From a virus, in IMG/VR virus record IMGVR_UViG_3300005832_000038, positions 1 to 63,847 of that record: 63,847 bases of DNA; one strand, given 5' to 3'. Of the stretch, positions 7,461 through 59,396 are shown piece by piece. Below the pieces are notes generated by a model. The model saw nothing but the letters and a program-made list of their open reading frames with translations. It was not told the origin of the DNA and did no database searches. Positions within the stretch are counted from its first letter, which is position 1. The number at the start of each line of letters is the position of its first letter. The translations under genes and the position numbers were made by a program.

Positions 7461-7866
7461 GTTACTTGGTATCGGGGCAGACTTTCACTTTCAGAAATAC
7501 GTAAGAATTTACGGAAATACTTTAGAGGTGAAACATCATTTAACCGCGACGTTTAGCGAAGATCCGAAAGAAGCAGAGTTTGAAGAGGTATTGAAGGCGT
7601 TGGAAGGGGGATTAATTGTGGAATCCCGTAGTGAGATATTAGATACGGCGTTAGAGATTCTCGTTGGGGGCATGGATCCACGGGTTAGGTTTACGCGGTA
7701 TGATGGAAACAGGCCGTTTATCTATTACGATAAATTGGATAATGAGCTAGTGATTAAGGCCTTGGATTACGAATCCGCGAACCGATATTTAAAGATGATA
7801 TTGCGAGAAGTGACAACGATTTCCGAAGAAGGTAATACCGTGGGTACGGAAATATTTACAGAATGA
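7438..7866 (+). CDS. Hypothetical protein upstream of terL
   Basis: 142 residues, alpha/beta mixture, no recognised domain. It overlaps the membrane gene by 23 nt and the terminase start by 4 nt (ATGA). Its place just before terL is where a small terminase often lies, but I see no helix-turn-helix and do not call it one. Confidence 0.5.
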   Translation: MLKHIRDELLGIGADFHFQKYVRIYGNTLEVKHHLTATFSEDPKEAEFEEVLKALEGGLIVESRSEILDTALEILVGGMDPRVRFTRYDGNRPFIYYDKLDNELVIKALDYESANRYLKMILREVTTISEEGNTVGTEIFTE

Positions 7867-11201: not shown

Positions 11202-12260
11202 GTGCCATCGAACATAGTCAAACCAGGGCAAGAGGCGGCGTGGGAGCGGGCGAAAAAGAAAGCGGCCGAGCAGGGGCACGAAAAGGACTGGCCGTATATC
11301 GTCGCGATTTTCAAGAAAATGCGAAAGTCTTTTGCCAAGAGCGTGACATCCGGGAAAAAGAGGCCCGACGTGGGCGATGAATTCTTGTTGCGGCAAGCCA
11401 AGGCGGAAGCCAAGGCGCTAGGGCGCGGCGACGATTGGGCGTTTATCACGACGCTTTACCAGCGCATGAAAAAATCCCTGGTCAAGGGCTACGTGGTACC
11501 GGTACCGCACAACCAGGCGCGCACGCCGGGGCAAGTGCCTGGACGCGAGCGATTACCGCGGGAGTTGCGGCGATTGACGGACAAGCCTCCCGAGCTATCT
11601 CAGGCGCGGCTCGAGCGTTATGATGACATACCCGTGTTGCGGCCGGAAGCGGCGGTAAGGGGCCTAGGGTTCAACGCGCAAGAGGCGAGCAGGTGGGCGG
11701 GATTCATCGCTCAGACTGCGCGCACAGCGGCAAACGAATTGACTTTCCGACAAATAGCGCTCGACAAATTTCGAGAGGAAAAATTGCCCGTGGAGGTGAC
11801 CAAGGCGCTATTGCAACGAGGCCTCGCGTACTGGCGACAAATCCAAAAATCTTTCGTGTACGTGGAGGCTGTGACGGTTGACGAGTTGTCCAAGGCCGTG
11901 CCTCGAGGCGGGAAATACCATAGACGGGTTCCTAAGCCCGGAGGGGGTTACAATTACGTGTACGATGAGGCGAGTTACCAGAAACGCCAGGACGCCCATG
12001 TAGACGGCGAAGCGGCGAACGTAGCCTACGTTACGAACCAAGTTGTGAAGTGCGTACAGGCGGCGGGAGAGGGCGGATGTCGGCCGAGCGCGCTCAAACC
12101 CTTAGTCCAGAAATTTGGGGCGGATAAGGTGGCCAAAATTCTAGAAGACGGAGCGGGCGGGAAAATCAGTTTTAAGGGAGGAAAATTCAAGCTTAAGAAA
12201 GAGCCTGATAGCGATAAAGGGGGTAGCAGTGAAAAAATACAACGAGGACGAGGTAATTGA
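11202..12260 (+). CDS. Head-region protein with two N-terminal repeats and GGKY-type tag
   Basis: 352 residues from a GTG start with CAGGGAGC upstream. Residues about 13-44 and 62-93 are two copies of a helical motif (W/L-x-x-A-K..A...G....DW..I...F..M.KS). A tag-like segment near residues 225-258 (VDELSKAVPRGGKYHRRVP, then YNYVYDE) resembles segments in the neighbouring large proteins. The C-terminus is basic and looks helix-turn-helix-like. It may be an internal head or morphogenesis protein (inference from location between terL and portal). Confidence 0.6.
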   Translation: MPSNIVKPGQEAAWERAKKKAAEQGHEKDWPYIVAIFKKMRKSFAKSVTSGKKRPDVGDEFLLRQAKAEAKALGRGDDWAFITTLYQRMKKSLVKGYVVPVPHNQARTPGQVPGRERLPRELRRLTDKPPELSQARLERYDDIPVLRPEAAVRGLGFNAQEASRWAGFIAQTARTAANELTFRQIALDKFREEKLPVEVTKALLQRGLAYWRQIQKSFVYVEAVTVDELSKAVPRGGKYHRRVPKPGGGYNYVYDEASYQKRQDAHVDGEAANVAYVTNQVVKCVQAAGEGGCRPSALKPLVQKFGADKVAKILEDGAGGKISFKGGKFKLKKEPDSDKGGSSEKIQRGRGN

Positions 12261-12477
12261 TATTTCGGCGTGGGCTAATGCTGGGAGCAATCATTTATCG
12301 ATTGAAACGTCGGGCATGGATTATTTGTGCAGCAAAGCATTGGTAAGGGACGTGCAAAGAATGGCAAAAAAATATCCCGGAATACGCTTTCGGGTTGAGG
12401 CGTGGCGAGAAGGCTCTATGCGGGATATTCTTTCAAGACTGAGGGATCAAAAACCAGAGGCGGAAAATGATGATTAG
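12229..12477 (+). CDS. Hypothetical small protein
   Basis: 82 residues from a GTG with AAAGGGGG upstream. It overlaps the previous gene by 32 nt and the next by 11 nt. Mixed alpha/beta, no recognised domain. Confidence 0.5.
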   Translation: MKKYNEDEVIDISAWANAGSNHLSIETSGMDYLCSKALVRDVQRMAKKYPGIRFRVEAWREGSMRDILSRLRDQKPEAENDD

Positions 12478-13516
12478 AGAGCAATTCGTAATCCCAGTAA
12501 CGGCGTTGGATGAGTACCTCGAAAAAGCCGGGCCGCACAAGTACACTTCCAAGAAAATGGTTCAAGGAAAATGGGTTTACGAATATAAAGACGAGGCGGT
12601 AACACGCATCGCAAATTCTCTACTTGATTTTTTAGCCAATCCCAAACGTACCATAACCCTCGCGCAGGTATCGCGGTCATTTCGCCTCGATAAGGCGAAG
12701 GCGAAAGAGGTTATCGATACGTTGGCCAGGCAAGGCAATATTACTGGTTCTACTGAACCGGGCGGCGTGACCACGTATAAACGCAATCCCAGACAAAAGG
12801 CTGGTACCGAAAAGCCTAAGCTCGTGATCCCAGAAACACCAAAGCCCGAAGAGAAACCCGTTGAAAAGCCCCTAAAGACTGAATTGACTGAGAAGGAAAA
12901 GAAACAAGTCGATGAAAATAGATATAGGGGCAAGGCTGAATTACTTCGGTTATTCGAAAAGAAGGGGACGGTTTGGCTAGATCAACACCCTAATATTAAA
13001 CAATCTGATTTGACCGATATGGCAGTGAGCCATTACGTGGAAAGAGTAACCGATTTTGCGGGGGAAACAGCCGATGAAGGTTTTAGAGTTGGCTATCGGT
13101 TAACGGGTACAGGCGAACGAGCTATTAATAATATGAATAATGAGCAGCGCAAGGAACTACAAAAGCAGCAATACGAGCAAAAGAAAAAGAAAATTCCCCC
13201 TAAAAAAGATCAACCGAAATTAGCAAAAGAAGCGGTATTGAATTGGTTCCAACCACAAGGCCCGAATGTCGGTATAAACGCCGTGGGCATGACACAACAT
13301 TTTGCGTACAATCTCGGGTTGCATATACCCAGTGATACTATTTTATCGGCAATGAATAAGCTCGTGAAAGATGGGGTATTAACTCGGGAAGGTGAGGGGC
13401 ATACGGCGACGTTTAAAAAGGTAAAGCCGAAAACAAATAGCGATTATAAACCACAAAAGCAAGGCCAGTTGTCTTTCGAATTCAACAAGGCGCGATTCAT
13501 CGTAAAGGCGGGTTGA
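12467..13516 (+). CDS. Repeated winged-helix protein with N-terminal tag
   Basis: 349 residues. The N-terminus has the module seen in its neighbours (LDEYLEKAGPHKYTSKKMV, then GKWVYEYKDE). Winged-helix-like segments lie near 45-105, 150-215 and 255-325, each helix-rich and ending in a beta wing (for example TITLAQVSRSFRLDKAKAKE). They are separated by Lys/Pro/Glu-rich linkers. The C-terminus has QLSFEF, similar to a sliding-clamp-binding hexapeptide. Probably DNA-binding; location suggests packaging within the head, but this is inference. Confidence 0.6.
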   Translation: MMIREQFVIPVTALDEYLEKAGPHKYTSKKMVQGKWVYEYKDEAVTRIANSLLDFLANPKRTITLAQVSRSFRLDKAKAKEVIDTLARQGNITGSTEPGGVTTYKRNPRQKAGTEKPKLVIPETPKPEEKPVEKPLKTELTEKEKKQVDENRYRGKAELLRLFEKKGTVWLDQHPNIKQSDLTDMAVSHYVERVTDFAGETADEGFRVGYRLTGTGERAINNMNNEQRKELQKQQYEQKKKKIPPKKDQPKLAKEAVLNWFQPQGPNVGINAVGMTQHFAYNLGLHIPSDTILSAMNKLVKDGVLTREGEGHTATFKKVKPKTNSDYKPQKQGQLSFEFNKARFIVKAG

Positions 13517-13517
13517 G

Positions 13518-16500
13518 ATGACTATTGAAGCACTAGACGAGTTTGCGAAGGGCGGCCCGTACTACGGACCACGAGGCGGTAAATGGAAAGATCCACAACA
13601 CAAAATTCCATGGGATGACAAAGAGCCCAAAGGCGGGGGCAAAAAGGCCGCGGTAGATAAAAGCGTTAAGGCCTCTATTCTGGGCATGTTGTCGGAGCAT
13701 CGAGCTATTGATTTAACGAGGTTATCAGTATCCGACGCCGCGAAAAAGGCGATAAAAGAAGCGTTGCCAGCGTTGAAGGCCGAAGGACTAATAGAGGATG
13801 CTAAGATCCAAACGATGTCGGGTTCTATCCCAGGTTTTAAGTTAACTCCAAAGGGAGCTAAGGCGTCTCAAGGTCTGGACAAAGAAGTAAAAGAAGAGAA
13901 GAAACAGGCCGATCCCAGGCAGCTAGGCCTAGACTTTACCATACCGGCCAAGAAACCGGAGCCGAAACAAGAGCCCCAAACGAAAGCCGAAAAGGCTAAG
14001 GCGAATAAAGAAGCGAAGCTTCGCACAGCTATTTCGACGGAAGACGGGTTGAAAGAAGTGTTCGCCAAGTTTGCCTTGAAACGCGGCAATCAAAGTTTTT
14101 ACGCGGATGATCTCCCCAAATTGATAGGTGTGGCCAAAGAAGATAGCGCGGGATTGGTTCAAAAGTTGGAAGACAAGGGATTAATCACGAGCAAGAAATT
14201 TCAGATAGGCCCGAAAGGTAGCGCGCCCACGAAGCTTTACCAGGTAGCAGATAAAGGCCGGGAAGCGAGGGAGGATTATTTCACGGGAAAGACGTCGAAG
14301 CGAAAAGACAAAGAGGCCCCACAAAAGAGAACCAGCGTGCAAAACTATGCAATGGGGAGTTTGCTTGATCGGGACAATATGTCAGTTAATGCGTTGGTTA
14401 ACGCCTCGGGTAAATCCGAGGCGGAAATAAAAGAGGCCATGGGGGGATTGGTCAAGCAGGGTTTAGTAAAAGAGACGCAGGTTTCTACCGGTGGGAAGTA
14501 CAAAGATCCGGGATACGCGATAACAGATAAAGGGAAAAGTCAGTTAAAAGCCGAGCGCGAAAAAACTTATAAGAAAATGGAAACGGGACAAAAGCCCGCG
14601 GCGAAAAAACAAGAGGCCAGCGAGAAGCCAGTTTCGCCGGAACCGAAAGTGAGCACGCCTACTTATAGCGAGCTACGGGCGGGTAAATTGTTGGGGAAAG
14701 ATCCCGCTACCGGTAACGAATTTAAGCGTGTTGGGGATACGGTGTGGTCTGTTAGTAGTCATGGTATTACTAATAGGGGTTCCTATGCTGATTTTGAGAA
14801 ACAAGTGAAAGAGGGGAAGTATCATTCTCGGATTAAATTTACCGGTCTAGATGAGGGGGAAAAGAAAAAACAAGTACTCGAGAGTCCACAATACGACGTG
14901 GATTTCAGCGAGGGGTTTAAAGCGGGTAAGGCGGCCCACGATAAGGATCCGTATACCGATGCTTCGCACGCCAAGGCAGCCTATGAAAAGGTGAGCGGTA
15001 AACACGGTAGTTATTACGAAGACGGGTTCAAGGCGGCGATTGATCACAAAAGAGGCCTATACGCCGGGGATAATTTGAAGATTGCTCGACATTTGGGTTT
15101 GGTGCCTCCGCCTACTTTGGATTGGAAACCGGAAGACGAGCCCTTGAACATCCAAAAATCAATAGACACGCTCGATGACTTCGCGAAAGGTGGCCCTTAT
15201 TACGGGCCTCGAGGGGGGAAATGGGCAGATCCGCAGCACAAAATCCCGTGGCAAGAGTCAAAGAAGAAACCCAGTAAAAAGAAGCCTACGGAAAAGAAGC
15301 CCGAGAAAGAAACGTCATTGCGTCATTGGGTGTCCACAGTAGACGTGGGGTTGCCTGCCCAAACCATAAACAAGTACAAAGGCCCGAACGGATATACCCC
15401 AGAGCGTAAAAGGCTACATTCGGCGATTATCAGTAAATTTGTTGATCACGTTCCTAGCGTGCCTAGCGATCAAAGGCCTGTGGCTATCGTAATGATGGGA
15501 GGCGGGGGAGCTGGTAAAGGAACCATCGTGCGACACGTTATGGGCGATGAGCACGATTTCGTGAACGTCAATTCCGATGATTGCAAAGAGGAGTTGCCGG
15601 AATATCAGCAGGCCTTGGATCTCGGCAAGAAAGACGGGAAAACTATCAGCGCGAGGGACGCCGCATGGATGGCTCACGAAGAGAGTTCGGATATCGCCAA
15701 GGACATATTGCAAATAGCCATCGCAGATCGCAAAAATCTGATTATGGACGGCACGGGTTCAAATTCTGATAAGTATCAGGGCAAAATCCAAAAGCTCAAA
15801 GACGCCGGGTATCATGTGCGCGTAATGATGCCTCACATTTCGTTAGACGAGGCGAAGCGGCGCGCCGACATGCGGGCGGAGCGCTCAGGGCGCTATGTGC
15901 CCCACGAAATACTCGAACAGGCGCACCATTTAATCCCAGGCAATTTCGAAAAAATTGCGCGGACAGCCGATGAGTTTGCGTTGTTCGATAATTCGGGAAG
16001 GCCTCCAAGACCGGTTTGGTCGTTTAACGGGGAAAAGGAAACCGTGTTAGATCCTAAATTCGTAAACGATTTTAAGAAATTGGGGAAGGAAAGGCACGCC
16101 GTAGCACGCGCAAAAGGTTGGATGAAGTCATTACAGGAATGGCTTGAGATGAGAAAGGCGGAGGGGATGAAAGTGTCACTATCGATGGAAGACATGTTGA
16201 AACGAATGGAAACAAAGCGCGACGAGGTTTTAGATACCGCATCGATGCTCGACGATTTCGCGCCCGAAATGGAAAAGCATTTAGAGGACATGGCGAAAAA
16301 ATCAATGGGAGAAAACGAAATGAACGGAATAGACGCACTGGATGAGTTTGCGAAGGGTAACGGGGCCATGCCTTCGGGGGAGCCGAAACTAGGCGGTAAC
16401 GGGGAAGAACAAGGCGGCAAGCTCGCCGGGGTAGGAAAAACCGGGGGTTCGGGCGACTCGGCGAGCGGTCCGCCTATCGCCGCACCAAACCCCACGAAGG

Positions 16501-17012
16501 ACAAACTATCAGAAGACGATGCGGAAGACGAAAAAGCCATGAAGGAGCACAAGAAGCCAATCGAGAAGACGGCGAAGGCCTCGAAGAGTTTCCGCGACAC
16601 AACCCCGCAGGGGATTCGGGACGCGTACGCGCTCGAACACGCCCAGTACGTATCCAAGCTGAAAAAGGGTGAACCCGACGAGCGGGTGGGAATACCGGGG
16701 GTTCCTAGGCAGCAACCGGAGCCGGAGCCGATGGCAAAATCTCGAGAGTGGGGATATGATCGGGAATCTCGCGTGGTGTATTCCACGGGGACGGATGAAT
16801 TCACGGCGAAAATGGCCAAGTCGGATTCATTCTATCACGGGGTATCAGCTCCCAGATTGTCACCTCACATCGGGATAATGCACATCGTACGGTGCAAGGC
16901 GTGCGGGGACAAGATGTCCAAGGCGTTGACTGCGTGTCCACATTGTGGAGAGGGTACGGCCGAGCGTGGGGTGGTTTACGTGGACGAGGGCCGGTACGTA
17001 GACGATAAATAA
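13518..17012 (+). CDS. Multidomain protein: tag, winged helices, second tag, zeta-toxin-like kinase, zinc ribbon
   Basis: 1164 residues. In order: tag module at 6-34 (LDEFAKG, GPYYGPRGGKW, IPW); winged helices near 50-120, 170-250 and 270-350, with QLGLDF at 135-140; two unknown segments; a second tag near 551-580; a zeta-toxin-type P-loop kinase near 620-830 (GGGGAGKGT near 661-669, NVNSDDCKEELPEY, IMDGTGS, RSGRYVP); LDEFAKG again near 940; a final zinc ribbon (RCKACG, CPHCG) near 1125-1145. Zeta toxins phosphorylate UDP-GlcNAc-type sugars and block cell-wall synthesis, but the substrate here is unknown and no epsilon antitoxin is seen. It lies directly upstream of the portal gene. Confidence 0.75.
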   Translation: MTIEALDEFAKGGPYYGPRGGKWKDPQHKIPWDDKEPKGGGKKAAVDKSVKASILGMLSEHRAIDLTRLSVSDAAKKAIKEALPALKAEGLIEDAKIQTMSGSIPGFKLTPKGAKASQGLDKEVKEEKKQADPRQLGLDFTIPAKKPEPKQEPQTKAEKAKANKEAKLRTAISTEDGLKEVFAKFALKRGNQSFYADDLPKLIGVAKEDSAGLVQKLEDKGLITSKKFQIGPKGSAPTKLYQVADKGREAREDYFTGKTSKRKDKEAPQKRTSVQNYAMGSLLDRDNMSVNALVNASGKSEAEIKEAMGGLVKQGLVKETQVSTGGKYKDPGYAITDKGKSQLKAEREKTYKKMETGQKPAAKKQEASEKPVSPEPKVSTPTYSELRAGKLLGKDPATGNEFKRVGDTVWSVSSHGITNRGSYADFEKQVKEGKYHSRIKFTGLDEGEKKKQVLESPQYDVDFSEGFKAGKAAHDKDPYTDASHAKAAYEKVSGKHGSYYEDGFKAAIDHKRGLYAGDNLKIARHLGLVPPPTLDWKPEDEPLNIQKSIDTLDDFAKGGPYYGPRGGKWADPQHKIPWQESKKKPSKKKPTEKKPEKETSLRHWVSTVDVGLPAQTINKYKGPNGYTPERKRLHSAIISKFVDHVPSVPSDQRPVAIVMMGGGGAGKGTIVRHVMGDEHDFVNVNSDDCKEELPEYQQALDLGKKDGKTISARDAAWMAHEESSDIAKDILQIAIADRKNLIMDGTGSNSDKYQGKIQKLKDAGYHVRVMMPHISLDEAKRRADMRAERSGRYVPHEILEQAHHLIPGNFEKIARTADEFALFDNSGRPPRPVWSFNGEKETVLDPKFVNDFKKLGKERHAVARAKGWMKSLQEWLEMRKAEGMKVSLSMEDMLKRMETKRDEVLDTASMLDDFAPEMEKHLEDMAKKSMGENEMNGIDALDEFAKGNGAMPSGEPKLGGNGEEQGGKLAGVGKTGGSGDSASGPPIAAPNPTKDKLSEDDAEDEKAMKEHKKPIEKTAKASKSFRDTTPQGIRDAYALEHAQYVSKLKKGEPDERVGIPGVPRQQPEPEPMAKSREWGYDRESRVVYSTGTDEFTAKMAKSDSFYHGVSAPRLSPHIGIMHIVRCKACGDKMSKALTACPHCGEGTAERGVVYVDEGRYVDDK

Positions 17013-17028
17013 TGCAAGCGGATATAAT
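16999..17028 (+). promoter_or_regulatory. Possible sigma70-like promoter before portal
   Basis: TAGACG (16999-17004) and a perfect TATAAT (17023-17028) are spaced by 18 nt, in and just after the end of the zeta-like gene and 33 nt before the portal ATG. It could give the portal and downstream genes separate expression. Motif reading only. Confidence 0.4.
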
Positions 17029-17060
17029 GTAGGCCAGCATAACGCGGCGAGAGGTTACCA

Positions 17061-18731
17061 ATGGGCATTAGAGATAGTATCGGCCGACTAGGTAAAACGG
17101 CTTTGGGCGCGTTTGGGGAGGTACTCACAGAGTACGCGGGGGAGCCTCTAGCGAAGGCGAAGAGAGACGATAAGGACGAGGAAAAGGAGCCCAAAGCCGA
17201 CAAGGAATTAACCAGGGGCATGGTTCCTATCGAGAAAGCGACTGACGATCCCAAGTCGCTTTTTTGGGATCCCTACGCAATCATTGAACAGTTAGGATAC
17301 AAAGACCGGCCATCGATGGTTACGTACGGGACGTTGCGAGCTATGACTTGGAAAATGCCTATCGTCCAGGCCATAATCCAAACACGCCTAAATCAGTTAG
17401 CCGCGTTTTGTACTCCGCAGCATGATCGGTATCAGTTGGGATTTCGCCTTAGTTTACGGGACAGTGAGAAGGAGCCGACCAAGGCCGAGATGAAATGGAT
17501 TAGGGACATGGAATCCATTTTCATGCGGACGGGCGTTACGGATAATATCCGGGGCCGGGACGGATTAGAAGATTTCATGCGGAAAGTCATGTATGACTCG
17601 ATGGTTCTCGACCAAATGACTTTCGAGGTGGTTCCCAATCGCAAGGGGACGCCCGCAGAATGGTACGCGGTAGACGCCTCGACCATTCGGCTCGCCGATA
17701 CCGCCTCGACGCACAAAAACGAGGATTTGAAAAAAGAAATTCGGTATGTCCAAATTTACGACGGGATGATCATTTCCGAGTATACCCAAGACGAGCTTTG
17801 CTTTGGGGTACGGAATCCCCGTACTGATTTACGGCTTTACGGGTACGGCGTGAGCGAGTTGGAAATGTTAATTCCAATTATCACTAGTTTGCTCTTTTCG
17901 TTTCAGTACAATCAAAATTTCTTTACGCAGGGATCGGCGGCAAAGGGAATTATCAATTTCAAGGGAACGGTGCCAGAGCGTCAATTGCAGTCGTTCAGGC
18001 GGCAATGGTACCAGATGATTTCGGGCGTAGAGAATAGCTGGCGAACGCCGATTACTAACAGTGAGGATTTGCAATACATAAACTTGCAGCAGTCAGCCCG
18101 AGATATGGAATTTTCGGCTTGGATGGATTTCTTGATCAAAGTGACTTGCAGTTGTTTCAGCATTGATCCGGTGGAAGTCAATTTTCAGTATGGAAATTCA
18201 GGACAGAAAGCAAGTTTAGTAGAAGCGAGCAACAAAGAAAAAATTACGGAAAGTAAAGAACGCGGGTTGCGGCCGTTAATGAGTTTCTTTGCAAGGGCGA
18301 TGAACAAATACATCGTTTGGCCGATAAACGAAAATTTCGAATTCGAGTTTGTAGGCCTCGATTCCACGACGCACTCGGAAACGGCCGATTTGGCGACCAA
18401 GCAGGTAAAGAGCTACAAGACGGTAGACGAGATTAGAGCCGGGGAAGATTTACCGCCATTGCCGGAGGGCAAGGGGGAGATAATCCTCGATCCGGTCTGG
18501 ATGCAAAACCACATGGCCAGCCAGCAGGGCGAGGAGGGGATGCCCGAAGAAGGCGGGGAAGAAGGCGGCGCGGGATTCCCTCCCGGTGAAGAAGAGAACC
18601 AAGGCAAAGAAGGCGGCGAAGCAAAGAATAAGCCGGTAGACTTCCAAACGCTGTTATCCCAGTACGAAGAGGACGAGAACGAGGGCGAAACGGAAAAAAG
18701 CCTGACGCGTAGTTGGGTTGTAGAACTATGA
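17061..18731 (+). CDS. Portal protein
   Basis: 556 residues, a normal length for portal subunits, which form the dodecameric DNA channel at one head vertex. Typical features are YGTLRAMTWKMPIVQAIIQTR near 90-110, FEVVPNRKGTPAEWYAVDAS, and the helical segment followed by an acidic Glu/Gly-rich C-terminus. It lies just after the zeta-like gene and shortly before the MuF-like minor head gene, the usual portal/minor-head order. GAGAGG precedes the ATG. Confidence 0.85.
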   Translation: MGIRDSIGRLGKTALGAFGEVLTEYAGEPLAKAKRDDKDEEKEPKADKELTRGMVPIEKATDDPKSLFWDPYAIIEQLGYKDRPSMVTYGTLRAMTWKMPIVQAIIQTRLNQLAAFCTPQHDRYQLGFRLSLRDSEKEPTKAEMKWIRDMESIFMRTGVTDNIRGRDGLEDFMRKVMYDSMVLDQMTFEVVPNRKGTPAEWYAVDASTIRLADTASTHKNEDLKKEIRYVQIYDGMIISEYTQDELCFGVRNPRTDLRLYGYGVSELEMLIPIITSLLFSFQYNQNFFTQGSAAKGIINFKGTVPERQLQSFRRQWYQMISGVENSWRTPITNSEDLQYINLQQSARDMEFSAWMDFLIKVTCSCFSIDPVEVNFQYGNSGQKASLVEASNKEKITESKERGLRPLMSFFARAMNKYIVWPINENFEFEFVGLDSTTHSETADLATKQVKSYKTVDEIRAGEDLPPLPEGKGEIILDPVWMQNHMASQQGEEGMPEEGGEEGGAGFPPGEEENQGKEGGEAKNKPVDFQTLLSQYEEDENEGETEKSLTRSWVVEL

Positions 18732-18738
18732 GGGAAAA

Positions 18739-19128
18739 ATGAGAATTAAACACAAAGTGAATGTGCGAATAGCGGACGACGCGGATTTCAAAAATTTTCT
18801 TTTCGCGCCCGACGATGCGTTATCCGAGGTAGTGATTGATTCGTATTACAGGCAGACTTCCGGTAAATTCAAAATTTTGATGAATACCGATGAGGATTTG
18901 GCCCTAGGCGATATTTCCGCAGTGAAGGGTATTTTCATCAAAGTGAATAAAGACGCCGTGGTGACGTTGAACGGGGGAGCGGAAACAATCCAACTACGTC
19001 GATCCGGGGCCACGTCTAGCGATTACGCAAAGCTGTTTCTCGAGGCCGATATTACGGCTGTGAATATCGCCGCGCCAGTTACGGAAGACATGGAAGGTCT
19101 GTTTTGCGCGTGGGGAGATACGGCGTAG
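18739..19128 (+). CDS. Putative minor structural protein
   Basis: 129 residues, beta-rich (GIFIKVNKDAVVTLNGGAETIQL), like small phage virion-associated beta proteins. GAGGGAAAAA precedes the ATG 7 nt after the portal stop. Specific role unknown. Confidence 0.5.
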   Translation: MRIKHKVNVRIADDADFKNFLFAPDDALSEVVIDSYYRQTSGKFKILMNTDEDLALGDISAVKGIFIKVNKDAVVTLNGGAETIQLRRSGATSSDYAKLFLEADITAVNIAAPVTEDMEGLFCAWGDTA

Positions 19129-19138
19129 AGGGGGAAAC

Positions 19139-19393
19139 ATGCGTTTAGAATTGAAGGCAACCGAACGGGAGCTAGCCGAAAAGTCTACCGAACTTGTTTC
19201 CCAGTTGGAAGCGTTATTCCGAAACGTCGCGCCCGATACGGCCGAGCTATTGAGGAAAGCTTTGCCTGAAAAAGCAGTGACGTTGCGTCACCCAGCGCTT
19301 CATGATCTGCATAAACAAACAAGCGTTTTATACAAAGATCACATCGACAGAATGTTGGCGGCCATCGGTAGGGTTATGGATCGCAGTCTATGA
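19139..19393 (+). CDS. Hypothetical helical protein
   Basis: 84 residues, almost all helix with charged repeats, preceded by AGGGGGAAAC. It overlaps the next gene by 4 nt (ATGA). No family recognised. Confidence 0.5.
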   Translation: MRLELKATERELAEKSTELVSQLEALFRNVAPDTAELLRKALPEKAVTLRHPALHDLHKQTSVLYKDHIDRMLAAIGRVMDRSL

Positions 19394-19590
19394 CGCAAGA
19401 CACAATCAAGCCAGGGCAAATCTATTTTGACGTAATAGCCATGGACGGTTGGCGATACGTCAAGGTGGTTTCGGTGTCTAAAAACTTTGTCGAAGTAGAA
19501 TTCTTAGAACCAAAATCTTATTGGGGATTGGTCTATGGCACGCTCACTAAAGACGAGATATTAACACGGTACCGATTAGCCGAATGGTAG
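19390..19590 (+). CDS. Hypothetical small beta protein
   Basis: 66 residues, beta-strand-like (YFDVIAMDGWRYVKVVSVSK), reminiscent of SH3-like small folds. It is coupled to the gene before it and ends 10 nt before the MuF-like gene. Function unknown. Confidence 0.5.
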   Translation: MTQDTIKPGQIYFDVIAMDGWRYVKVVSVSKNFVEVEFLEPKSYWGLVYGTLTKDEILTRYRLAEW

Positions 19591-19600
19591 GGGTGATACA

Positions 19601-22600
19601 ATGTTGTTTACCGCAGCACAGCTACACGAAATAAAAGAAATCATAAAGGACTACCACGACGCGTTCATTATCAACGCGGTAGACGACAAAGCATTACCAG
19701 AAGAAATCATAAAACGGTTAAAGGAAAAGGGCCTAATCGATCCCCAAGTCAATTCGATAAAAGACGCCTATTTGTACGGGCAAGTATTGGCCATGCTCGA
19801 GACCAAGCAAATAGCCGATATGTCGTATCCAGAATTCAAGGCGTACGTGAAGAAAAACCCGATACCGCTAACAGCGGTCGAGCGCCAGGCGGCACAAATG
19901 GCGGCGTTGCACGCGGGCCAGTATTGCCAGGGTTTAGGGAACAAGATCGGGGCAACAGTAGGTAGTGATTTAATTGAGGCGGATTCAAAATTGCGTGCAC
20001 GATTAGAAACGGATATTCGCACGGCGACCGCCGAAAACATAGTGAAACGCGAAACCGTAAAACAGCTTAAAACTGATTTGGGTTGGAAAACAAAGGACTG
20101 GGCGCGGGACTGGGATAGAATCGCGGTAACAGAAAAACAAACGGCGATGCAAGAGGGCGTAGCCGACGGGATACGCAAAGAGCACGGGGGAGAGGCCTAC
20201 GTGTCCAAGATCCCGCAACCGGGCGCTTGTAACCATTGCCTACGCCTTCACGTTGGTCCAGACGGGAACCCAAGAATTTTCAAGCTCTCTACCCTGGAAA
20301 ATAACGGAACTAATTTTGGGAAGAAAGCGCAAGACTGGGATCCGGTAGTGGGGGCAGTTCATCCCAATTGTCAATGTACATTAGTGAGGGTTCCCAAGGG
20401 TTGGGGGTACGATGAAGAGGGAATTCTAGTACCAGGGGGAAAAGGCGGAGTCAAGTACGAAGACGAGCAAGCGATGTCCCGAGCAGTGAAGGCCGAAGAT
20501 GATCTACAGAAGTCGTTAGCGCAATTTGACATTCAATTTACGAAATCCGGCTCGAATGGCTTGGGGAGTAACATTGTACTTGGCGGCGATTTCTTGGAGC
20601 GTAACGCCTTGGTGGTAAAGGGTGATTGCTTTTTCTCTTGGCCAGAGGCGGCGCGAACGATTATTTCTAGTTGGGCGTGTGATCGGGAGACCATGATTAA
20701 GAAAGACTTTTCGGACGCCTGTTTGCGTCGCTCCCAATCTACGGGCAATTTCACCGATGCATTGACCTTCATTCCAGAGGAGAACAGCTTTATCCAGATC
20801 CCACATGCGAGGACCCCAATGTTCCCTACGGTGTTCCGTGGGTGTTTTGATCTCCAAGTTGGAGATCGCGTTATTAAGGCCGTTCCCGTCTTTGTGGTGG
20901 ACCAACTCGGAGGAAAGGAGTGGGCGGCGCAAATGGCGCTCCATAATAACCCTATGTTCAAGGCGTTGTCGGCCATTATCCCAGATAAGCCGGTATTGTG
21001 TTTTGGCATTAGGGAATTGTCTGATGTGTCCGCCTTTAAATCGCATGAAGCCCAAGATATACTTGGAGACAATAAAAGGCAAGGGATTGCTAATACTAAA
21101 CCAAAAACCGGGGAAATGGGCAAGTCGGGAATCAAGCTCGTACTCCCGGTGGAAGACACCTTATTGAAGGCGGGGAAAGTCGGCGGGAAGTACATCCGGC
21201 GGGTGCCGTATACCGACAAAAACGGCAAACAACGATACCGGTATTTTTACGCAGAGTCAGCGGTTGCGCGGGACGTGAAGGCGGGGGAATCAATCCGATT
21301 AGGCGAAGATTTGGTTCAAGTCGAGAAGGTGGAACCGAACGGCACGGTGCACTTGCGCTCGAAAAACCAAACGTTCGTTATAAAGGGCCACCAATGGTCT
21401 ACCTTTGTTTCAGAATTTTACGGCCAGGCTTATTTCAAGTGGGCCGAAAAACGAGCTATGCAATCCGTCAACGCGGTATTGCAGCACGTTCCACGGGAAT
21501 TGCTCGGGGAGCTAAAGGGATCTACTGATAAGGCTCGACTAGCCGATCTGAAAAAGCGCGTACCGGACGTTTACACGAAACTGCAAAAGTCTTTCTCCAG
21601 GGCCGGGGTGAACCCTTTCCGAGCAAAAGAGGTGATCGGGGCCGCGCTCGAGCGGAGGGGTTGGGAAGTGGAGGCCAGGGCGGCGGTAATCGGAGACGTG
21701 ATTACCAAGCGTAACAATGATTACCGCACAACAATTCGGGCAGCGGAAAACCTCGCGGGCGGGAAAGTCGTTAAGCTCGGCCATGTCGCAGCGGTAACCG
21801 AGATTAGACGGGAAATGCAAGCGGTCGAGCCGGAGCCCACGAAAGAGCCACCAAAGAAACGGGCGAAGGGTAAAAAGAGGGCAAAGGAAAAGCCCAAAGA
21901 AGAGCCTAAAGATCCTATCGCCGAGGTGGCCGAGAAGGCCGAAAAAGAAATCTCAAAGTTGAGCGCTTTGCTCGAACAAGCTCGTGGAGGGACGGCCGAG
22001 GACGCGGCGCAAACCCTGGCAACCGCTCTTTCATCGGAATCGATTCAAAAACTTTTGTTGATTGCGAAGGCTTTCCCAGGCCTCGCCGACAAGGCGATAG
22101 AACCGGCCCGCGAAGTCATGCTCCAAGTGCCCAGCGTAGCCACGGTCAGCGAGCCGAAAGCGGTAGGTAGCTCGACAACGGTATTTGTTGCCGGGGAAGC
22201 AGGCCAGGCTAAGGGCCTCACAGCGCGTTACAAATTAATGGAAGCCGACGACGTGATAGCGAGTCACGATCCACGGTCGTTTAACCAAAGGAAAGATTAT
22301 CCCGAGGGAATTCAGGAACGCGCCTATCATCGAGATAAAATGGAACAAGCAAAAGTCATGCGCAACGCGCAAAGACTATCGCCGGAATTCGTGGTCAATA
22401 CCAATCCCGACGCTGTGAATGGTCCGCCGATTATGAGCGCGGACGGGGTAGTGCTCGGGGGTAACAGCCGAACGATGTCTATGCAGTTGGCGTACGCGAA
22501 ACACCCCGAGAAAGCAGACCAGTTGCGGGCATACTTGGCCGAGCACGCGCACGAAACAGGATTCTCGCCGGAAGACGTGAAGGCTTTCAAAAACCCGATC

Positions 22601-24976
22601 CTGGTACGAGTAGTTGACGAGGGTGGGAATACCAAAACAGAAAAACAGCTCCTCGTACGGCAAATGAATGAATCGTTCACGCAGAGCATGGACCCCAGGA
22701 CAATGCAGGTTGCCATGGGTAGAAAATTAACCGATACGGCGGTAGAAGCACTGGGTGAGGCCATGGACGCCGACGAAACATTGGGCGCGTTTTTGGGGAA
22801 GAAAAAAGCAGATCCGTTTATTACCGAGCTTCGAAACGTGGGTTTGATAGACCAACGCAACGCTAATCAGTATTTCGATAAAGACGGCACGATGAACGCG
22901 GACGGGAAAACCTTGGTTTCCCGTGTCCTGGTAGGCCGGATGATTGGTGACGCTGATTTATTAAGCGCCACAAGACCGTCAATTATAGAAAATCTAGCGC
23001 AAAGCGTGCCGTACATGGCACAAGCCCAGAAAAACGGCAAAGGGTACGATTTAGGCGATGATATACGGGTATCCTTGGACGCCTACAATTACCTGCAAAA
23101 TCAAATTGATAGAGGAACGGCAAAGGCATTAAAGCCTGATATGTCTTCGCAGGACTTCAAAAACTTGTTTGCCCAGATGGGCCTTGGGGCCGTCGAAGAG
23201 GAACACCCCGTAACGAAAAATTCCCGAGCGATGAGTTTACTCGAAGTAATGATTAGGCGTCCGGGCAAAAATCAAATTTCAAAACTGTTTAGGGGCTATG
23301 CTGCGGTAGCGAAAGAAAATCCCGAAGGCCAGGCGGGTTTATTGGGTGCGGCGCGTACACCTATCGAAGTATTCAACGAGGTAGTTCAAAGGCACCTAAA
23401 AAGCACCGGACCAAAGAAAGCGAAACCGACGGAAACCCCGGAGCAAGAAGCGGCGGGGAGTTTGTTTATGAGTGTAGAGCCCAGTCGACCACTTAGGCAA
23501 CCGTCATTCGCAGTCGATAGCCTTAGAAAGGCCGGGCCTTTTATTGGTCCGCGTGGGGGTAAATGGGCGGACGCCAAAATGACGATCCCCTGGAAAGAGG
23601 AAAAGAAATCCCCGTTAATTGGGTTGAAATTAGAGATTAAACCCCACGAAAAAATGGGCATGTACGACGTTACGTTCCATGTAGTGGACGCGAAAGACGG
23701 CAAGGTTCGTCTTTCGAAGGATAAGGACGGGGAATTCGGGCCATGGGTTCCCGAGGAGTCTTTGTCTCATCTAAAAAATGACTTAGAGGGTAAAGTTGAT
23801 TTACCGGTAAGGTCGAAAAATGAAACCGTAAATGCAGTGCTCGACGGCAAAGCGGAATTTTTGGGGAAGGGTGACGACGGGTTAGCTTTTCGCGTAGGCG
23901 ATAAAGTTGTGAAGGTATCAACGCCCGTGCCGTATCATCCAGAAAATAATATGTATTTAACGCCGGAAAAAGCGGTGGATCGCTTAAGAAAGCAAGCAGA
24001 AGTAGGCAACGAATTGGCGGACATAAAAGGGGTACAACGATCCGAGTTCATTTCGGGCCACGGTAAGGGGTTTCAAATAAAAGATTGGGTAGAGATACCG
24101 AAGAAATTCACACGCGAACAATTAGACCAGATTCAAAAAACGGTTATCGAGATACACAAACGAGGGTACTCGATAAACGATACCATCCAGCCAGGGTTAG
24201 ATAAAAACGGTGAACCGGTTTTGTTCGATATTGGCAAGGCGGACAAAGCGCGTGGTACGGGAATGATGTCAGATAAAGAATCTGATATGAGCAATTTGTC
24301 ATTATTGTACCGAGATAGCGGGGAGCATTTTGTTAGGTTGGACGTAGACAAAACAAAGCAAGCTTGGCAACATTTCGAAGGTATGTTGAAGCATTATTTG
24401 GAAACAGAATCATTTGATTACGCACGAAAGAAATTAGATAAAGCCGTAGCAAAGAGGGAAAAAGATATTCGAGCAAAGTACAAAGGGAAAGAGCTAAAAG
24501 CAGAGCTGGATCTGCTAGACTTTGAAAAAGACGATTTGATGTTCGATATTGAGCACGCGGAAAAGAAGGCGGGGAAGCCCGAGCTTACCAAGGGACTGAA
24601 CGCGACGATAGCGACGGCGGGTACGTACTCCGGGGACAAGTCGCCGGGCCCAGGTTTGGGTGTGAACTACGCAATCAAAACGCCCTCGAAAAAGAAGCCC
24701 AAGAGAAAGCAGATTAAGGATGAGGACGATCCCACGGGGATGAAAAGGGCGCTGAAAAACCCGAATCCTAGAGCTACGCAAACCGTGACTATCGATAAAG
24801 CTACTTACACCGGTTTCAGGGGGGTAAATACCGTACACAAATACGTCCTACCGGAACAAGCCCGCCGGGATGGTATCGCCGATGAAATTTCGAGAAACCG
24901 GGGACACCTTGAACGGGAAATCGAGCGCCACCAAACGCCGGGAAACAGGGTGAATATTAAACGGGAGCAAGAGTAA
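19601..24976 (+). CDS. MuF-like minor head protein fused to polyvalent DdrB/ParB-like and kinase-fold domains
   Basis: 1791 residues. The N-terminal 280 are a Mu gpF-like head-morphogenesis domain (GACNHCLRLH near 210 and HPNCQC near 255 are diagnostic). Residues about 306-494 are the sense reading of an antisense HNH gene and have no recognised fold. Then come a GGKYIRRVP tag near 525, a long helical region, a DdrB/ParB-like polyvalent domain near 880-1180 (VVLGGNSRTMSMQLAYA), the GPFIGPRGGKW tag near 1320, and a kinase-fold domain near 1390-1590 (FLGKGDDGLAF, IHKRGYSIND, LFDIGKA). Polyvalent proteins are known to be carried into the host with incoming DNA. Probably located inside the head near the portal (inference). 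Confidence 0.8.
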   Translation: MLFTAAQLHEIKEIIKDYHDAFIINAVDDKALPEEIIKRLKEKGLIDPQVNSIKDAYLYGQVLAMLETKQIADMSYPEFKAYVKKNPIPLTAVERQAAQMAALHAGQYCQGLGNKIGATVGSDLIEADSKLRARLETDIRTATAENIVKRETVKQLKTDLGWKTKDWARDWDRIAVTEKQTAMQEGVADGIRKEHGGEAYVSKIPQPGACNHCLRLHVGPDGNPRIFKLSTLENNGTNFGKKAQDWDPVVGAVHPNCQCTLVRVPKGWGYDEEGILVPGGKGGVKYEDEQAMSRAVKAEDDLQKSLAQFDIQFTKSGSNGLGSNIVLGGDFLERNALVVKGDCFFSWPEAARTIISSWACDRETMIKKDFSDACLRRSQSTGNFTDALTFIPEENSFIQIPHARTPMFPTVFRGCFDLQVGDRVIKAVPVFVVDQLGGKEWAAQMALHNNPMFKALSAIIPDKPVLCFGIRELSDVSAFKSHEAQDILGDNKRQGIANTKPKTGEMGKSGIKLVLPVEDTLLKAGKVGGKYIRRVPYTDKNGKQRYRYFYAESAVARDVKAGESIRLGEDLVQVEKVEPNGTVHLRSKNQTFVIKGHQWSTFVSEFYGQAYFKWAEKRAMQSVNAVLQHVPRELLGELKGSTDKARLADLKKRVPDVYTKLQKSFSRAGVNPFRAKEVIGAALERRGWEVEARAAVIGDVITKRNNDYRTTIRAAENLAGGKVVKLGHVAAVTEIRREMQAVEPEPTKEPPKKRAKGKKRAKEKPKEEPKDPIAEVAEKAEKEISKLSALLEQARGGTAEDAAQTLATALSSESIQKLLLIAKAFPGLADKAIEPAREVMLQVPSVATVSEPKAVGSSTTVFVAGEAGQAKGLTARYKLMEADDVIASHDPRSFNQRKDYPEGIQERAYHRDKMEQAKVMRNAQRLSPEFVVNTNPDAVNGPPIMSADGVVLGGNSRTMSMQLAYAKHPEKADQLRAYLAEHAHETGFSPEDVKAFKNPILVRVVDEGGNTKTEKQLLVRQMNESFTQSMDPRTMQVAMGRKLTDTAVEALGEAMDADETLGAFLGKKKADPFITELRNVGLIDQRNANQYFDKDGTMNADGKTLVSRVLVGRMIGDADLLSATRPSIIENLAQSVPYMAQAQKNGKGYDLGDDIRVSLDAYNYLQNQIDRGTAKALKPDMSSQDFKNLFAQMGLGAVEEEHPVTKNSRAMSLLEVMIRRPGKNQISKLFRGYAAVAKENPEGQAGLLGAARTPIEVFNEVVQRHLKSTGPKKAKPTETPEQEAAGSLFMSVEPSRPLRQPSFAVDSLRKAGPFIGPRGGKWADAKMTIPWKEEKKSPLIGLKLEIKPHEKMGMYDVTFHVVDAKDGKVRLSKDKDGEFGPWVPEESLSHLKNDLEGKVDLPVRSKNETVNAVLDGKAEFLGKGDDGLAFRVGDKVVKVSTPVPYHPENNMYLTPEKAVDRLRKQAEVGNELADIKGVQRSEFISGHGKGFQIKDWVEIPKKFTREQLDQIQKTVIEIHKRGYSINDTIQPGLDKNGEPVLFDIGKADKARGTGMMSDKESDMSNLSLLYRDSGEHFVRLDVDKTKQAWQHFEGMLKHYLETESFDYARKKLDKAVAKREKDIRAKYKGKELKAELDLLDFEKDDLMFDIEHAEKKAGKPELTKGLNATIATAGTYSGDKSPGPGLGVNYAIKTPSKKKPKRKQIKDEDDPTGMKRALKNPNPRATQTVTIDKATYTGFRGVNTVHKYVLPEQARRDGIADEISRNRGHLEREIERHQTPGNRVNIKREQE
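20516..21046 (-). CDS. HNH homing-type endonuclease, antisense inside the MuF-like gene
   Basis: 176 residues from the ATG at 21046 (a TTG at 21082 would add 12). The motif LEHRVIMERHL, then ELVHHKDGNGLNNAISNLEI, is a clear HNH endonuclease signature of the phage homing type. Two C-terminal helix-turn-helix repeats (IGEIARRLGATQTGVRKVF and LQEIAAKYNVTPQAIRAGF) are the DNA-recognition part. It is the only convincing minus-strand gene here. Its codons are exactly aligned with those of the sense gene, whose frame stays open throughout. No strong ribosome site is visible before either start. Confidence 0.8.
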   Translation of the reverse strand: MRFKGGHIRQFPNAKTQYRLIWDNGRQRLEHRVIMERHLRRPLLSSELVHHKDGNGLNNAISNLEIKTPTEHRREHWGPRMWDLDKAVLLWNEGQCIGEIARRLGATQTGVRKVFLNHGLPITRPTRNNRSRRLWPREKAITLYHQGVTLQEIAAKYNVTPQAIRAGFRKLNVKLR

Positions 24977-25317: not shown

Positions 25318-26130
25318 ATGAATTTTGATTTCGAAGTACCAGTAAGTTTTTTCCAAAAAGCAGAGGCGGACCAGGGTAGACAAAGACGTATCGGCGGGAT
25401 CATTTCGTGCGAAACGCGGGATAGACAAAAAGAGGTTATCCTAGCTAAAGGCCTAGAACTAAACGATTTTCTAAGCAACGGTTGGTTCAATGACAACCAT
25501 TCTAAGAAAACCGTTGATATTTTGGGTTATCCCGAATTGACGCGCTACGTGGAAAAGGGTTCGCAACTCCCAGACGGGCGTATGGCCAAGGCCAACGGGC
25601 ATTGGGTGGAAGGCTATCTTCTCGATACGCCGGAAGCCGACAAGGTGTGGGAGCTAGGCAAAGCACTGCAAAAGACGCATCGACGTTTAGGTTTTTCCGT
25701 CGAGGGAAAAATCCTAAGACGTGAAGGCGAAGACAAGCGGATCATAGCGAAAGCGATGGTACGTAACGTCGCCATTACGAACTGTCCAGTTAATACCGAC
25801 TCACGTATGGAAATACTCGCGAAGAGTTTAGCGGCCATGGAGCAGGCCGAACCAAACGGGCTCGAGAAAACGCTTGGTATGGGTGATTGCTCGAGCAATG
25901 AATCCCCGGTAGGCGTGAAAACTGGTATGGGCGCGGGTCAAGTCTTGGCCGAAGAGGATTTGGAACAAGACGTAAAGGACCAAAACGAGAAAAAGAAAAA
26001 GAAGACAAAGAAGTCTTTAACAGCAAATGAGGCATTCGGCTACGTAAAAGCCCGTTTACCGAATGCTACAGACGAGCAAATCGGGCGATTGTTAACCTTG
26101 ACCAGCCGTGCAAAACGGCGGGTTGATTAA
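25318..26130 (+). CDS. Prohead protease
   Basis: 270 residues. The pattern NDNHSKK near residue 60, LGFSVEGK near residue 125 (the serine), and VRNVAITNCPVNTDS near 150 matches caudoviral prohead serine proteases, which use a His/Ser pair. It should cleave scaffold and capsid precursors. The C-terminal 80 residues are charged, low complexity and then helical (NEAFGYVKARLPNATDEQIGR), perhaps scaffold-like. The ATG lies 13 nt after the terminator T-run, which overlaps its leader. Confidence 0.8.
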   Translation: MNFDFEVPVSFFQKAEADQGRQRRIGGIISCETRDRQKEVILAKGLELNDFLSNGWFNDNHSKKTVDILGYPELTRYVEKGSQLPDGRMAKANGHWVEGYLLDTPEADKVWELGKALQKTHRRLGFSVEGKILRREGEDKRIIAKAMVRNVAITNCPVNTDSRMEILAKSLAAMEQAEPNGLEKTLGMGDCSSNESPVGVKTGMGAGQVLAEEDLEQDVKDQNEKKKKKTKKSLTANEAFGYVKARLPNATDEQIGRLLTLTSRAKRRVD

Positions 26131-26146
26131 ACAAGGAGTAGACGAA

Positions 26147-26962
26147 ATGTCTCAGGCACAAAGGGACGAGCTTTTGAAAGCTAAATCGGCCCCGAAGGAC
26201 GAAGAGGACGCGGAAGATGAGGGACAAGACGGGGGCGAAGACGAGGGCGAGGATATGGAAGAGTCTTCCGATCTGACAGAAGACGATCTCGAAAAGTCTT
26301 TGGTGCGTTTGCAGAGTCTTGTTGACGCCGAGGATCCTGTTTCGAGAAAACAATTTTTGCTCGAAAAGGCTCAAAAAGAAACACTCGAGAAATCCGAGCA
26401 AAAGGAATTGTTCGAGCTGCTCGGCCAGGGCGAATCCGAGAAGGAAAGCTTTGTTGAAGAGGTGACCAAAGGCCTCGAAGAAAACGACACGCTGCAAAAA
26501 GCGCTCGACGTCAGCGATTTTCTTCAAGAGCAACACGCCGAACTGGTCAAGTCTCTGGGTATGCTCGCCGAGTACCAGGAAAGATCCGACTCGCGCCAGC
26601 ACGCATTCAACTTGATTCTGGCCAAGGCAGTCGCCGACGAGGGTCGGTTGATCAAGAGTATCGCCGAACGAATTTCGGTAATCGAGGAACAACCTGTACG
26701 CGGGCCGAAAAGCAAGGGCGTAGCCGCGCTCGAGAAATCTTTCGCCGGAACCCCTCCCCCATCAAACCAGCTTGGAAAATCGGATGCGCTTAACGGCCTC
26801 ATGGGATTGCTTGAAGAGAGCATGACCAAGGGCATGGAAGGCCGAACCGAGGAGGGGATCGACATCGCCAGCGCTATCACGAAATGCGAATTGTTCGGCA
26901 CAGTCGATCCCAGGCTAGCATCCAAAATTCGGGAAAAAAGAAACGGCGCGACAACTCACTAA
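26147..26962 (+). CDS. Capsid scaffold candidate (acidic coiled coil)
   Basis: The ATG at 26147 is chosen because AAGGAG lies 8 nt upstream; a longer in-frame reading from 26108 overlaps the protease. 271 residues. Residues about 10-60 are extremely acidic, followed by long Glu/Lys/Leu helices, the composition of scaffold proteins. The position between protease and major capsid supports this. No sequence motif proves it. Confidence 0.65.
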   Translation: MSQAQRDELLKAKSAPKDEEDAEDEGQDGGEDEGEDMEESSDLTEDDLEKSLVRLQSLVDAEDPVSRKQFLLEKAQKETLEKSEQKELFELLGQGESEKESFVEEVTKGLEENDTLQKALDVSDFLQEQHAELVKSLGMLAEYQERSDSRQHAFNLILAKAVADEGRLIKSIAERISVIEEQPVRGPKSKGVAALEKSFAGTPPPSNQLGKSDALNGLMGLLEESMTKGMEGRTEEGIDIASAITKCELFGTVDPRLASKIREKRNGATTH

Positions 26963-27022: not shown

Positions 27023-28459
27023 ATGTCAGATCAAGTGAGTTGGAAAGATTATGAAGGGGTTGAGGGATTCGGCGCGGCAACCCAACAAGACGTCGACAAT
27101 CTGAACAAGGCCTTGACGGCCGGGGCGGATATAAATGCCCCCGGTTCAGTTGTGGCGGGTGACGGATTCAGTTTACGTGTGGAAAGTTTGGAATCCACTT
27201 TAAAAGTGACTACTTACAAGATGGACCACATACGCCTCTGGAAAGCCATTCCGAAGCTACCCGCATATAATACGGTAGAAGAGTACAATCAGCTACAAGA
27301 ATACGGCTCAAACTCTGATTCGGCGTTTATTGCGGAAGGAAATCTTCCAGAATCCGATGATAGTTCGTATCAGAGAAAATACGCGGTCGTAAAGTTCATG
27401 GGAACGACTCGATCCGTCACGCATCCAATGACCCTAGTTACAAGTGCGATCGGTCCCGTCATTGCGCAAGAAACGATCAACGGGACGATGCACCTTCTTA
27501 AGCAATTGGAAAGCGCATTGTTCTACGGTGATTCATCGCTCATCTCCGTTCAATTCGACGGTTACGAGAAGTTGATCACTGACAATTCACCCGCAACGAA
27601 CATTATCGATCAGCGGGGCCTTCCCCTTTCGGAAGACATTCTCACCGATGCGGCGTTGACTTTGCAGGACAGCCCGAACTATGCGCAACCAACTAACATG
27701 CATTTGAACCCCAAAGTCAAAGCCGATCTCGTGAAAACGTTTTTCCCGAAGGAGCGGCACGATACGTTCGCGGGAAACAAGAACGGGATGATCGGGACGG
27801 ATATTCGCGGTTTCACGTCGCCTGCGGGAGACATCGCCTTTGACGCCAATACGTTCATTACGGACGGTGGCGGGCCAAATGCAGCGGCAATTGGCGATTC
27901 CACGAAACGTCCGGGCACGCCCACGATTTCGACATCGGCGACGACTCCCGCCGATGCAGCGGCGATGTTCACAGCGGACGATGCCGGGGATTATTTCTAC
28001 AGCGTGGTTGCCGTCAACCGGTACGGACGCAGTATCAAGGTAGCAGTGGACGCGAGCGCGATTGCCGTTGCAGCGGGCGACCGTATGACTTTCGGCGTAA
28101 CGCCTGGCGGTACAACCGCAGTTGAGTACTATGCGCTTTATCGCTCCCAGAAAAACGGACTGGTTGGGAATCAGCGACTCATTAAGCGCGTAGCCAATGC
28201 GGCGGGCGCGGGAGCTTCGACGGTAATCGATCAAAACTTCAATCTTCCCTATTGTACATCCGCCTTTATTTTCCAGCAAAATTTGGAGTGCATGTCATTC
28301 AAACAACTGGCCCCATTGATCAAAATCCCACTTGCAACCATTGACACAAGTATCAGGTGGGCTCAATTGCTTTATGGGGTACCTTTGTTATATTGTCCAG
28401 GAAAAGTTTTGATGATCAAAAATATAGGGAGAGCTAGCGGCTACGTAGGTGCACCATAA
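27023..28459 (+). CDS. Major capsid protein with inserted Ig/FN3-like domain
   Basis: 478 residues. The N-terminal part and C-terminal part look like an HK97-fold capsid protein of the type with GTTRSVTHPMTLV and LLYGVPLLYCPGKVLMIKN. Residues about 292-402 look like an inserted Ig or FN3-like domain (GDYFYSVVAVNRYGRS, YYALYRSQKNG), common as surface display domains. The gene follows protease and scaffold, has AAGGAG before the ATG, and ends at a terminator. Its codon choice is more uniform than that of its neighbours, as expected of a highly expressed gene. Confidence 0.85.
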   Translation: MSDQVSWKDYEGVEGFGAATQQDVDNLNKALTAGADINAPGSVVAGDGFSLRVESLESTLKVTTYKMDHIRLWKAIPKLPAYNTVEEYNQLQEYGSNSDSAFIAEGNLPESDDSSYQRKYAVVKFMGTTRSVTHPMTLVTSAIGPVIAQETINGTMHLLKQLESALFYGDSSLISVQFDGYEKLITDNSPATNIIDQRGLPLSEDILTDAALTLQDSPNYAQPTNMHLNPKVKADLVKTFFPKERHDTFAGNKNGMIGTDIRGFTSPAGDIAFDANTFITDGGGPNAAAIGDSTKRPGTPTISTSATTPADAAAMFTADDAGDYFYSVVAVNRYGRSIKVAVDASAIAVAAGDRMTFGVTPGGTTAVEYYALYRSQKNGLVGNQRLIKRVANAAGAGASTVIDQNFNLPYCTSAFIFQQNLECMSFKQLAPLIKIPLATIDTSIRWAQLLYGVPLLYCPGKVLMIKNIGRASGYVGAP

Positions 28460-57038: not shown

Positions 57039-57049
57039 TAGGAGTTATT

Positions 57050-57265: not shown

Positions 57266-57267
57266 TC

Positions 57268-58323: not shown

Positions 58324-58333
58324 TGGAGCAAAA

Positions 58334-59380: not shown

Positions 59381-59396
59381 CAGAAAGGTTTGATTT

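Follow-up and report, generated by a model that had tools for sequence, protein, structure and literature searches.

Why should several proteins of different kinds, encoded around the portal gene of one phage, carry the same short peptide? The question is raised by the virus record IMGVR_UViG_3300005832_000038, which was analysed over its whole stretch of 63,847 bases (the window) and encodes the head-and-tail gene set of a contractile-tailed phage. An earlier note on this DNA suggested that the peptide may be a head-targeting signal, a prohead-protease processing site or a duplicated linker, and saw in it a possible modular system for loading multidomain proteins into the head. The reading that fits best, and that is probably correct as judged from the sequences, is that a head-protease site is combined here with a portable peptide marking virion cargo.

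In the window, the gene for an intein-bearing terminase is followed by the portal gene with four tagged genes around it, and then by the genes for protease, scaffold, major capsid protein and tail; the tagged, portal, protease, scaffold and capsid protein genes are all on the plus strand. The portal protein is encoded at 17061..18731. Two of the tagged genes are 11202-12260 and 12467-13516. The third (13518..17012) encodes a cargo-like protein with winged-helix segments, a zeta-type kinase and a zinc ribbon (Zeta_toxin, 2e-27; PadR, 1e-7), and the fourth (19601..24976) a MuF-like polyvalent protein with a ddrB-ParB domain (ddrB-ParB, 3e-19; minor head protein, 1e-4). They are followed by genes for an S78-like head maturation protease (25318..26130; phrog_1028, 2e-38), a scaffold protein (26108..26962) and the major capsid protein (gene start 27023). 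Some other features of the window were observed as well. The terminase large subunit (7863-11117) is encoded in a single reading frame that contains two intein-like insertions (Intein_splicing/LAGLIDADG at residues ~143-465, HINT domain at residues ~657-782). The N-terminal part of the product of gene 11202-12260 contains the segment W..AK..A...G...DW.[FY][IV]...[FY].[KR]MKKS twice, and DUF5661 was found in some tagged proteins other than this one. Towards the end of the window (55998-62844), there are five tandem paralogous genes, whose products of ~350 amino acids each all begin with LExGPYIFNVNN.

Re-reading the window recovered all motif copies claimed earlier, each in its place. In the following, Phi stands for a large hydrophobic residue and the sign | for the predicted cut. 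Three tags have the form GP[FY][IY]GPRGGKWxDxx(H)xIPW. Copy 1 forms the N-terminus of the gene 13518 product (MTIEALDEFAK|GGPYYGPRGGKWKDPQHKIPW, 13518..13613), copy 2 lies in the same protein between the winged-helix segments and the zeta kinase domain (IDTLDDFAK|GGPYYGPRGGKWADPQHKIPW, 15162..15251), and copy 3 belongs to the MuF-like gene (FAVDSLRK|AGPFIGPRGGKWADAKMTIPW, 23507..23593). Three further tags are hairpin-like K[YW] forms, i.e., a GGKY-type tag in gene 11202-12260 (VDELSK|AVPRGGKYHRRVPKPGGGYNYVYDE, 11877..11969; the same tag is found in a related record, L120), an HKY...GKW-type tag at the N-terminus of the gene 12467-13516 product (TALDEYLEK|AGPHKYTSKKMVQGKWVYEYKDE, 12500..12595; predicted by AlphaFold2 to be a beta-hairpin) and a GGKY-type tag inside the MuF-like gene (VEDTLLK|AGKVGGKYIRRVPYTDKNGKQRYRYFY, 21149..21250). 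All tags are on the plus strand, and all six start directly after Phi-x-K|[AG], the junctions being DEFAK|GGP, DDFAK|GGP and DSLRK|AGP for the GPRGGKW copies and EYLEK|AGP, DELSK|AVP and DTLLK|AGK for the other forms. Gene 13518 also contains an orphan site, IDALDEFAK|GNG (16329..16364, plus strand). As this third IDALDEFAKG carries no tag behind it, site and tag are separable.

The peptide is by no means restricted to this phage. A degenerate DNA pattern for GPxxGPRGGKW matched 89 stretches in IMG/VR, and its use on 84,980 genomes of bacteria and archaea added three genuine tags; a tblastn search of GenBank phages found no GPRGGKW tag. In total, 101 distinct GPRGGKW-type tags were collected, mostly from IMG/VR phages, with up to five copies per record. 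Positions that the search pattern left free are 93-100% conserved in these tags (A in 95, D in 99, H in 94, T or K in 100, I or V in 96, W or Y in all 101), and the tag is therefore not a product of chance. When sets of 39 and 30 tagged proteins were aligned over their full length, column identity averaged 8-9%, and the columns that were conserved lay in the tag. In the tagged proteins checked, the tags lie outside Pfam domains, in line with the earlier observation that they stand before or between domains. For example, one protein (L005) consists of an InPase domain at 310-430, a tag from 456, a SAM lyase domain at 552-646 and a second tag from 844, and another one (L036) of RadC at 391-501, a tag from 647 and a phosphoribosyltransferase at 771-851. 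The GPRGGKW tag itself had no match in Pfam, PHROGs or PDB, and the possibility that it is a known domain was rejected on these grounds. Tags of one genome resemble each other slightly more than those of different genomes (0.667 vs 0.621, permutation p 0.016), but this homogenization is weak and we place no weight on it.

The stretch before the tag is well supported as an S78-type prohead-protease site, at which a cut is predicted. Counts of Phi-x-K[ASG] in the window exceed those expected from shuffled sequences in the scaffold protein (12 vs 1.4), the protease (7 vs 1.3) and the MuF-like protein (17 vs 9.7); the tail genes are at background, and gene 13518 as a whole is not enriched (10 vs 7.5). 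Across the tagged phages, the ORF following the protease gene (scaffold) has 194 such sites vs ~24 expected, and the proteases have 155 vs ~34, the shuffle z-scores overstating independence as scaffolds and proteases are homologous among themselves. Control motifs (other spacings, orders or neighbours) were far weaker, and Phi-x-K[DE] was depleted. Furthermore, all 30 capsid protein N-termini inspected possess a conserved site region, mostly LxKALxAG (LNKALTAG, LRKALVAG or similar); in the window it is located at 27089..27124 (plus strand) and has the form LxKALxAG. The same motif is thus present in the capsid protein, the scaffold and the protease of one phage, as would be expected for substrates of an S78 protease. 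In fact, the mapped cut of the HK97 capsid protein, K103/S104 (PMC10275583), reads F-N-K|S and is of the form Phi-x-K|S; phage D3 was left out as a benchmark, its exact cut not being stated. As to the tags, 82 of 101 GPRGGKW tags stand directly behind Phi-x-K[AGS], compared with 4.4% of positions drawn at random from these proteins, and among the 19 tags with no adjacent site ~7 have one a few residues off and ~12 have none. The prohead-protease site proposed in the earlier note is therefore upheld, although the cut is predicted after K, 1-4 residues before GP, and not at GGKW.

The capsid N-terminal site segment recurs at the C-terminus of the protease, and the PHROG profiles of the two proteins cross-match over this common segment; a copy of the capsid N-arm may thus sit in the protease. 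The duplicated segment, LxK[AS]LxAG ... LRxESLE, is found in the window at 25804-25884 and at 27089-27124, and likewise in the loci L159-L218. For detection of the proteases, phrog_1028 (36 of 50 found) was the better probe, whereas PF04586 missed most of the K-type enzymes. In one tagged phage (L185), the head-protease gene is interrupted by an intein-like insertion directly after CPVNTDC.

If the site is read by the phage's own protease, its sequence should change with the protease, and this was observed. The pattern HKYx7GKWxY was found in 44 stretches, where some tags are located behind LxKA and others, in firmicute-like phages, behind LxHS or LxHA. A second tag type, HHG[IV]KG[QM]xWGV, was found with the pattern HHGxKGxxWGV in at least 120 stretches. 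Among the matches listed, all 158 copies of this tag are behind Phi-x-H, the residue two before the first H being L, I, F, M or V in 158/158, a hydrophobic residue at P3 that the search pattern did not specify. Among the same listed matches, the HHG phages encode S78 proteases, fused to the capsid protein in 28 of 40 records, and in these protease-capsid proteins Phi-x-H[ASG] (190 vs 23) and not the K form is enriched. Record by record, K exceeds H in 25/25 GPRGGKW phages, and H exceeds K in 28/28 HHG phages among the matches listed; the HKY phages have seven H-rich and four K-rich proteases, and the P1 residue of the tag agrees wherever the site is legible. The site residue thus changes together with the protease family in every record tested, and the predicted hairpin of the HKY tag is kept while the site residue follows the protease. 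Neither this switch nor the conservation outside the search pattern depends on the shuffle z-scores, and both are unaffected by their inflation. The HHG tag is identical with Pfam PF23847 (DUF7211), which matched 34 of 34 members scanned, while the GPRGGKW and HKY tags have no match to this family. In a profile comparison (hhalign), the GPRGGKW and HHG tags showed no homology to each other, so we claim a common architecture and not common descent; the reason may be convergence or a length too small for alignment.

The context of the tagged genes is equally strict. In 30 records, tag and protease were found together. Each of their 58 tags lies on the same strand as the protease gene; 57 are upstream of it, and so is the remaining one if the contig is circular. 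The distance between tag and protease is 8.3 kb in the median and does not exceed 28 kb, which holds for contigs of 60-113 kb as well. A phrog_1028 protease is present in 16 of the 17 GPRGGKW records longer than 50 kb; the remaining one (G032) was rejected as a protease-less record after inspection revealed an S78-like gene with Phi-x-K sites. The tagged proteins are large and multidomain, belong to the polyvalent type (anti-restriction, zeta, helicase), combine effector and polyvalent-specific domains and are encoded beside portal and terminase. Their domains include InPase, ddrB-ParB, DarA_C, LPD1, ART-PolyVal, zeta kinase, SNF2 and other helicases, topoisomerase I, RadC, GGDEF and SAM lyase, as in polyvalent and Dar proteins; the families are named for polyvalent proteins, which are also common on conjugative elements and plasmids (PMC5512222). 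Among 72,556 plasmids there was no match to either tag, and this absence from replicons where polyvalent proteins abound indicates a role in the head. Recurrence on unrelated proteins, gene context and cargo domains together support the modular cargo system proposed earlier.

The HHG/HYG tag is also present in 240 GenBank phage records, mainly phages of Arthrobacter, Gordonia, Streptomyces and Lactococcus. Gordonia phage Mossy has six tagged genes (one called RNA ligase, one an acetyltransferase with two copies), located upstream of the portal gene and of a 'major capsid and protease fusion' in which Phi-x-H occurs seven times. The genes between terminase and portal number four in Streptomyces phage GirlPower, and all of them are tagged; Rhodococcus phage ReqiPepy6 has seven tagged genes in this interval and another one ahead of the terminase gene. 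The gp07 protein of Lactococcus phage 1706, deposited as a 'structural protein' (a virion assignment that is the annotation of the record), possesses three tags, two KGMxWG and one HGFKY...KGKWIYNY hairpin; both tag kinds therefore serve in one protein annotated as a virion part. No tagged gene was identified in Thermobifida phage P318, whose proteomics was considered as a virion test.

How could such an element work? Its first part would be the S78-type prohead-protease site, a short and often helical stretch ending in Phi-x-K and cut before A, G or S, and its second part the portable peptide behind it, either the linear motif GPRGGKW...IPW or a K[YW]...GKW/Y hairpin. Tagged polyvalent cargo would be loaded into the prohead alongside scaffold and protease and cut there at Phi-x-K/H, so that each released piece starts with the tag, and the pieces would be ejected with the DNA. 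What the sequences support is the presence of the site and its link to the protease repertoire of the same phage, as well as the genomic context of the tagged genes and the portability of the peptide. Entry into the prohead, cutting and exit with the DNA we infer by analogy with the internal proteins of T4, which are brought into the core by a short N-terminal peptide that the prohead protease then removes (PMC9026906), and with DarB of P1, where a reporter is taken into the head by the N-terminal 30 residues (PMC9024508). The peptide appears not to be needed for cutting, as the scaffold, protease and capsid proteins have many sites with no peptide behind them, and it should therefore have a job of its own. 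Our leading guess is loading or retention in the head, and it is plausible that the peptide itself is a head-targeting address. More tentatively, with somewhat less than even confidence, we propose a common plug-in scheme in phages of proteobacteria-like, firmicute and actinobacterial hosts, in which any protein is loaded, cut free and delivered once it stands behind the site and a tag of one of at least three interchangeable types, and in which the tags, including GPRGGKW, are true addresses recognized by scaffold, portal or protease.

It is also conceivable, though unlikely, that the address is the short helical leader ending in Phi-x-K/H, as in the T4 capsid targeting sequence, and that the peptide behind it caps or protects the new N-terminus or docks the cargo to the DNA or to a host partner after ejection. 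The targeting peptides of T4 are N-terminal, have ~10 residues and are removed by the prohead protease (PMC9026906), and this form fits copy 1 of the window and most of the HHG copies listed; indeed, 121 of 158 HHG tags among the matches listed are within 60 residues of an upstream stop. Furthermore, AlphaFold2 predicts a helix before the GPRGGKW and the HKY tag, ending near the predicted cut. The peptide itself is modelled as a beta-hairpin of two strands in the HKY tag (block pLDDT 75-84) and has no predicted fold in the GPRGGKW tag (mean pLDDT 64), so the function of the latter is not readable from structure. However, 88 of 101 GPRGGKW tags are internal to their proteins, and the leader varies in sequence whereas the peptide behind it is nearly invariant across unrelated proteins. 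It is even less probable that the peptide is merely an extended protease recognition site that keeps the cut exposed. Its position, nearly always directly behind the site and between domains, would fit this function, but it is dispensable at the sites of scaffold, protease and capsid proteins, and one site type precedes different peptides. The "duplicated linker" of the earlier note, i.e., a recombination-friendly or selfish coding repeat for domain shuffling with no role in assembly, would account for several copies per gene in otherwise unrelated proteins, but is very improbable in view of the covariation of the P1 residue with the protease family, the strict gene context, the absence from plasmids, where polyvalent proteins abound (PMC5512222), and the conservation of amino acids over more than 20 positions.

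The best-supported element, a portable peptide directly behind a head-protease site, thus looks like a widespread loading-and-trimming signal on probable head cargo of many unrelated phages, new to the searchable literature except for the DUF7211 entry. Searches of this literature found nothing relevant on the tag motifs and no mention of DUF7211. The earlier statement that no description of such a tag is known therefore holds for GPRGGKW in the literature and databases searched, but not for the HHG form, which has its Pfam entry. Head-borne proteins are the first to reach the host and usually remain unidentified, and a mark that can be read from sequence would let genomes predict this cargo. 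The prediction would extend to hundreds of cultured actinobacterial phages, where the tagged genes are mostly called hypothetical. Furthermore, it becomes possible to read from sequence where many S78-type head proteases cut (Phi-x-K or Phi-x-H), and the tag could serve as a portable delivery tag.

Several known systems resemble this one in part. Maturation of HK97 gp4/gp5 involves a head-protease cut of the form Phi-x-K|S, but this cut is known for the scaffold domain of the capsid protein and not for cargo (PMC10275583). Polyvalent proteins share the cargo domains and the portal-terminase context, whereas they occur on plasmids too and the tag does not; a term search of that article revealed no processing tag (PMC5512222). 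DUF7211 is identical with the HHGxKGxxWG tag type and is listed in Pfam with function unknown, but does not cover the GPRGGKW and HKY tags. The capsid targeting sequence of T4, cut by gp21, is also a short peptide on unrelated cargo beside a prohead-protease cut, with anti-restriction and host-takeover roles (PMC9026906). However, the T4 peptides are N-terminal and removed, whereas the present tag is a long conserved peptide located after the predicted cut and also internally, the site residue is K or H, the protease is S78-like, and the targeting role is a putative one. Finally, the DarB targeting sequence of P1 is a packaging signal on a large anti-restriction protein in a phage with a prohead protease, and the related ddrB-ParB and DarA_C domains are found there, too; while its authors found no consensus among the N-termini of the Dar proteins (PMC9024508), the present tag is one consensus across many cargo proteins.
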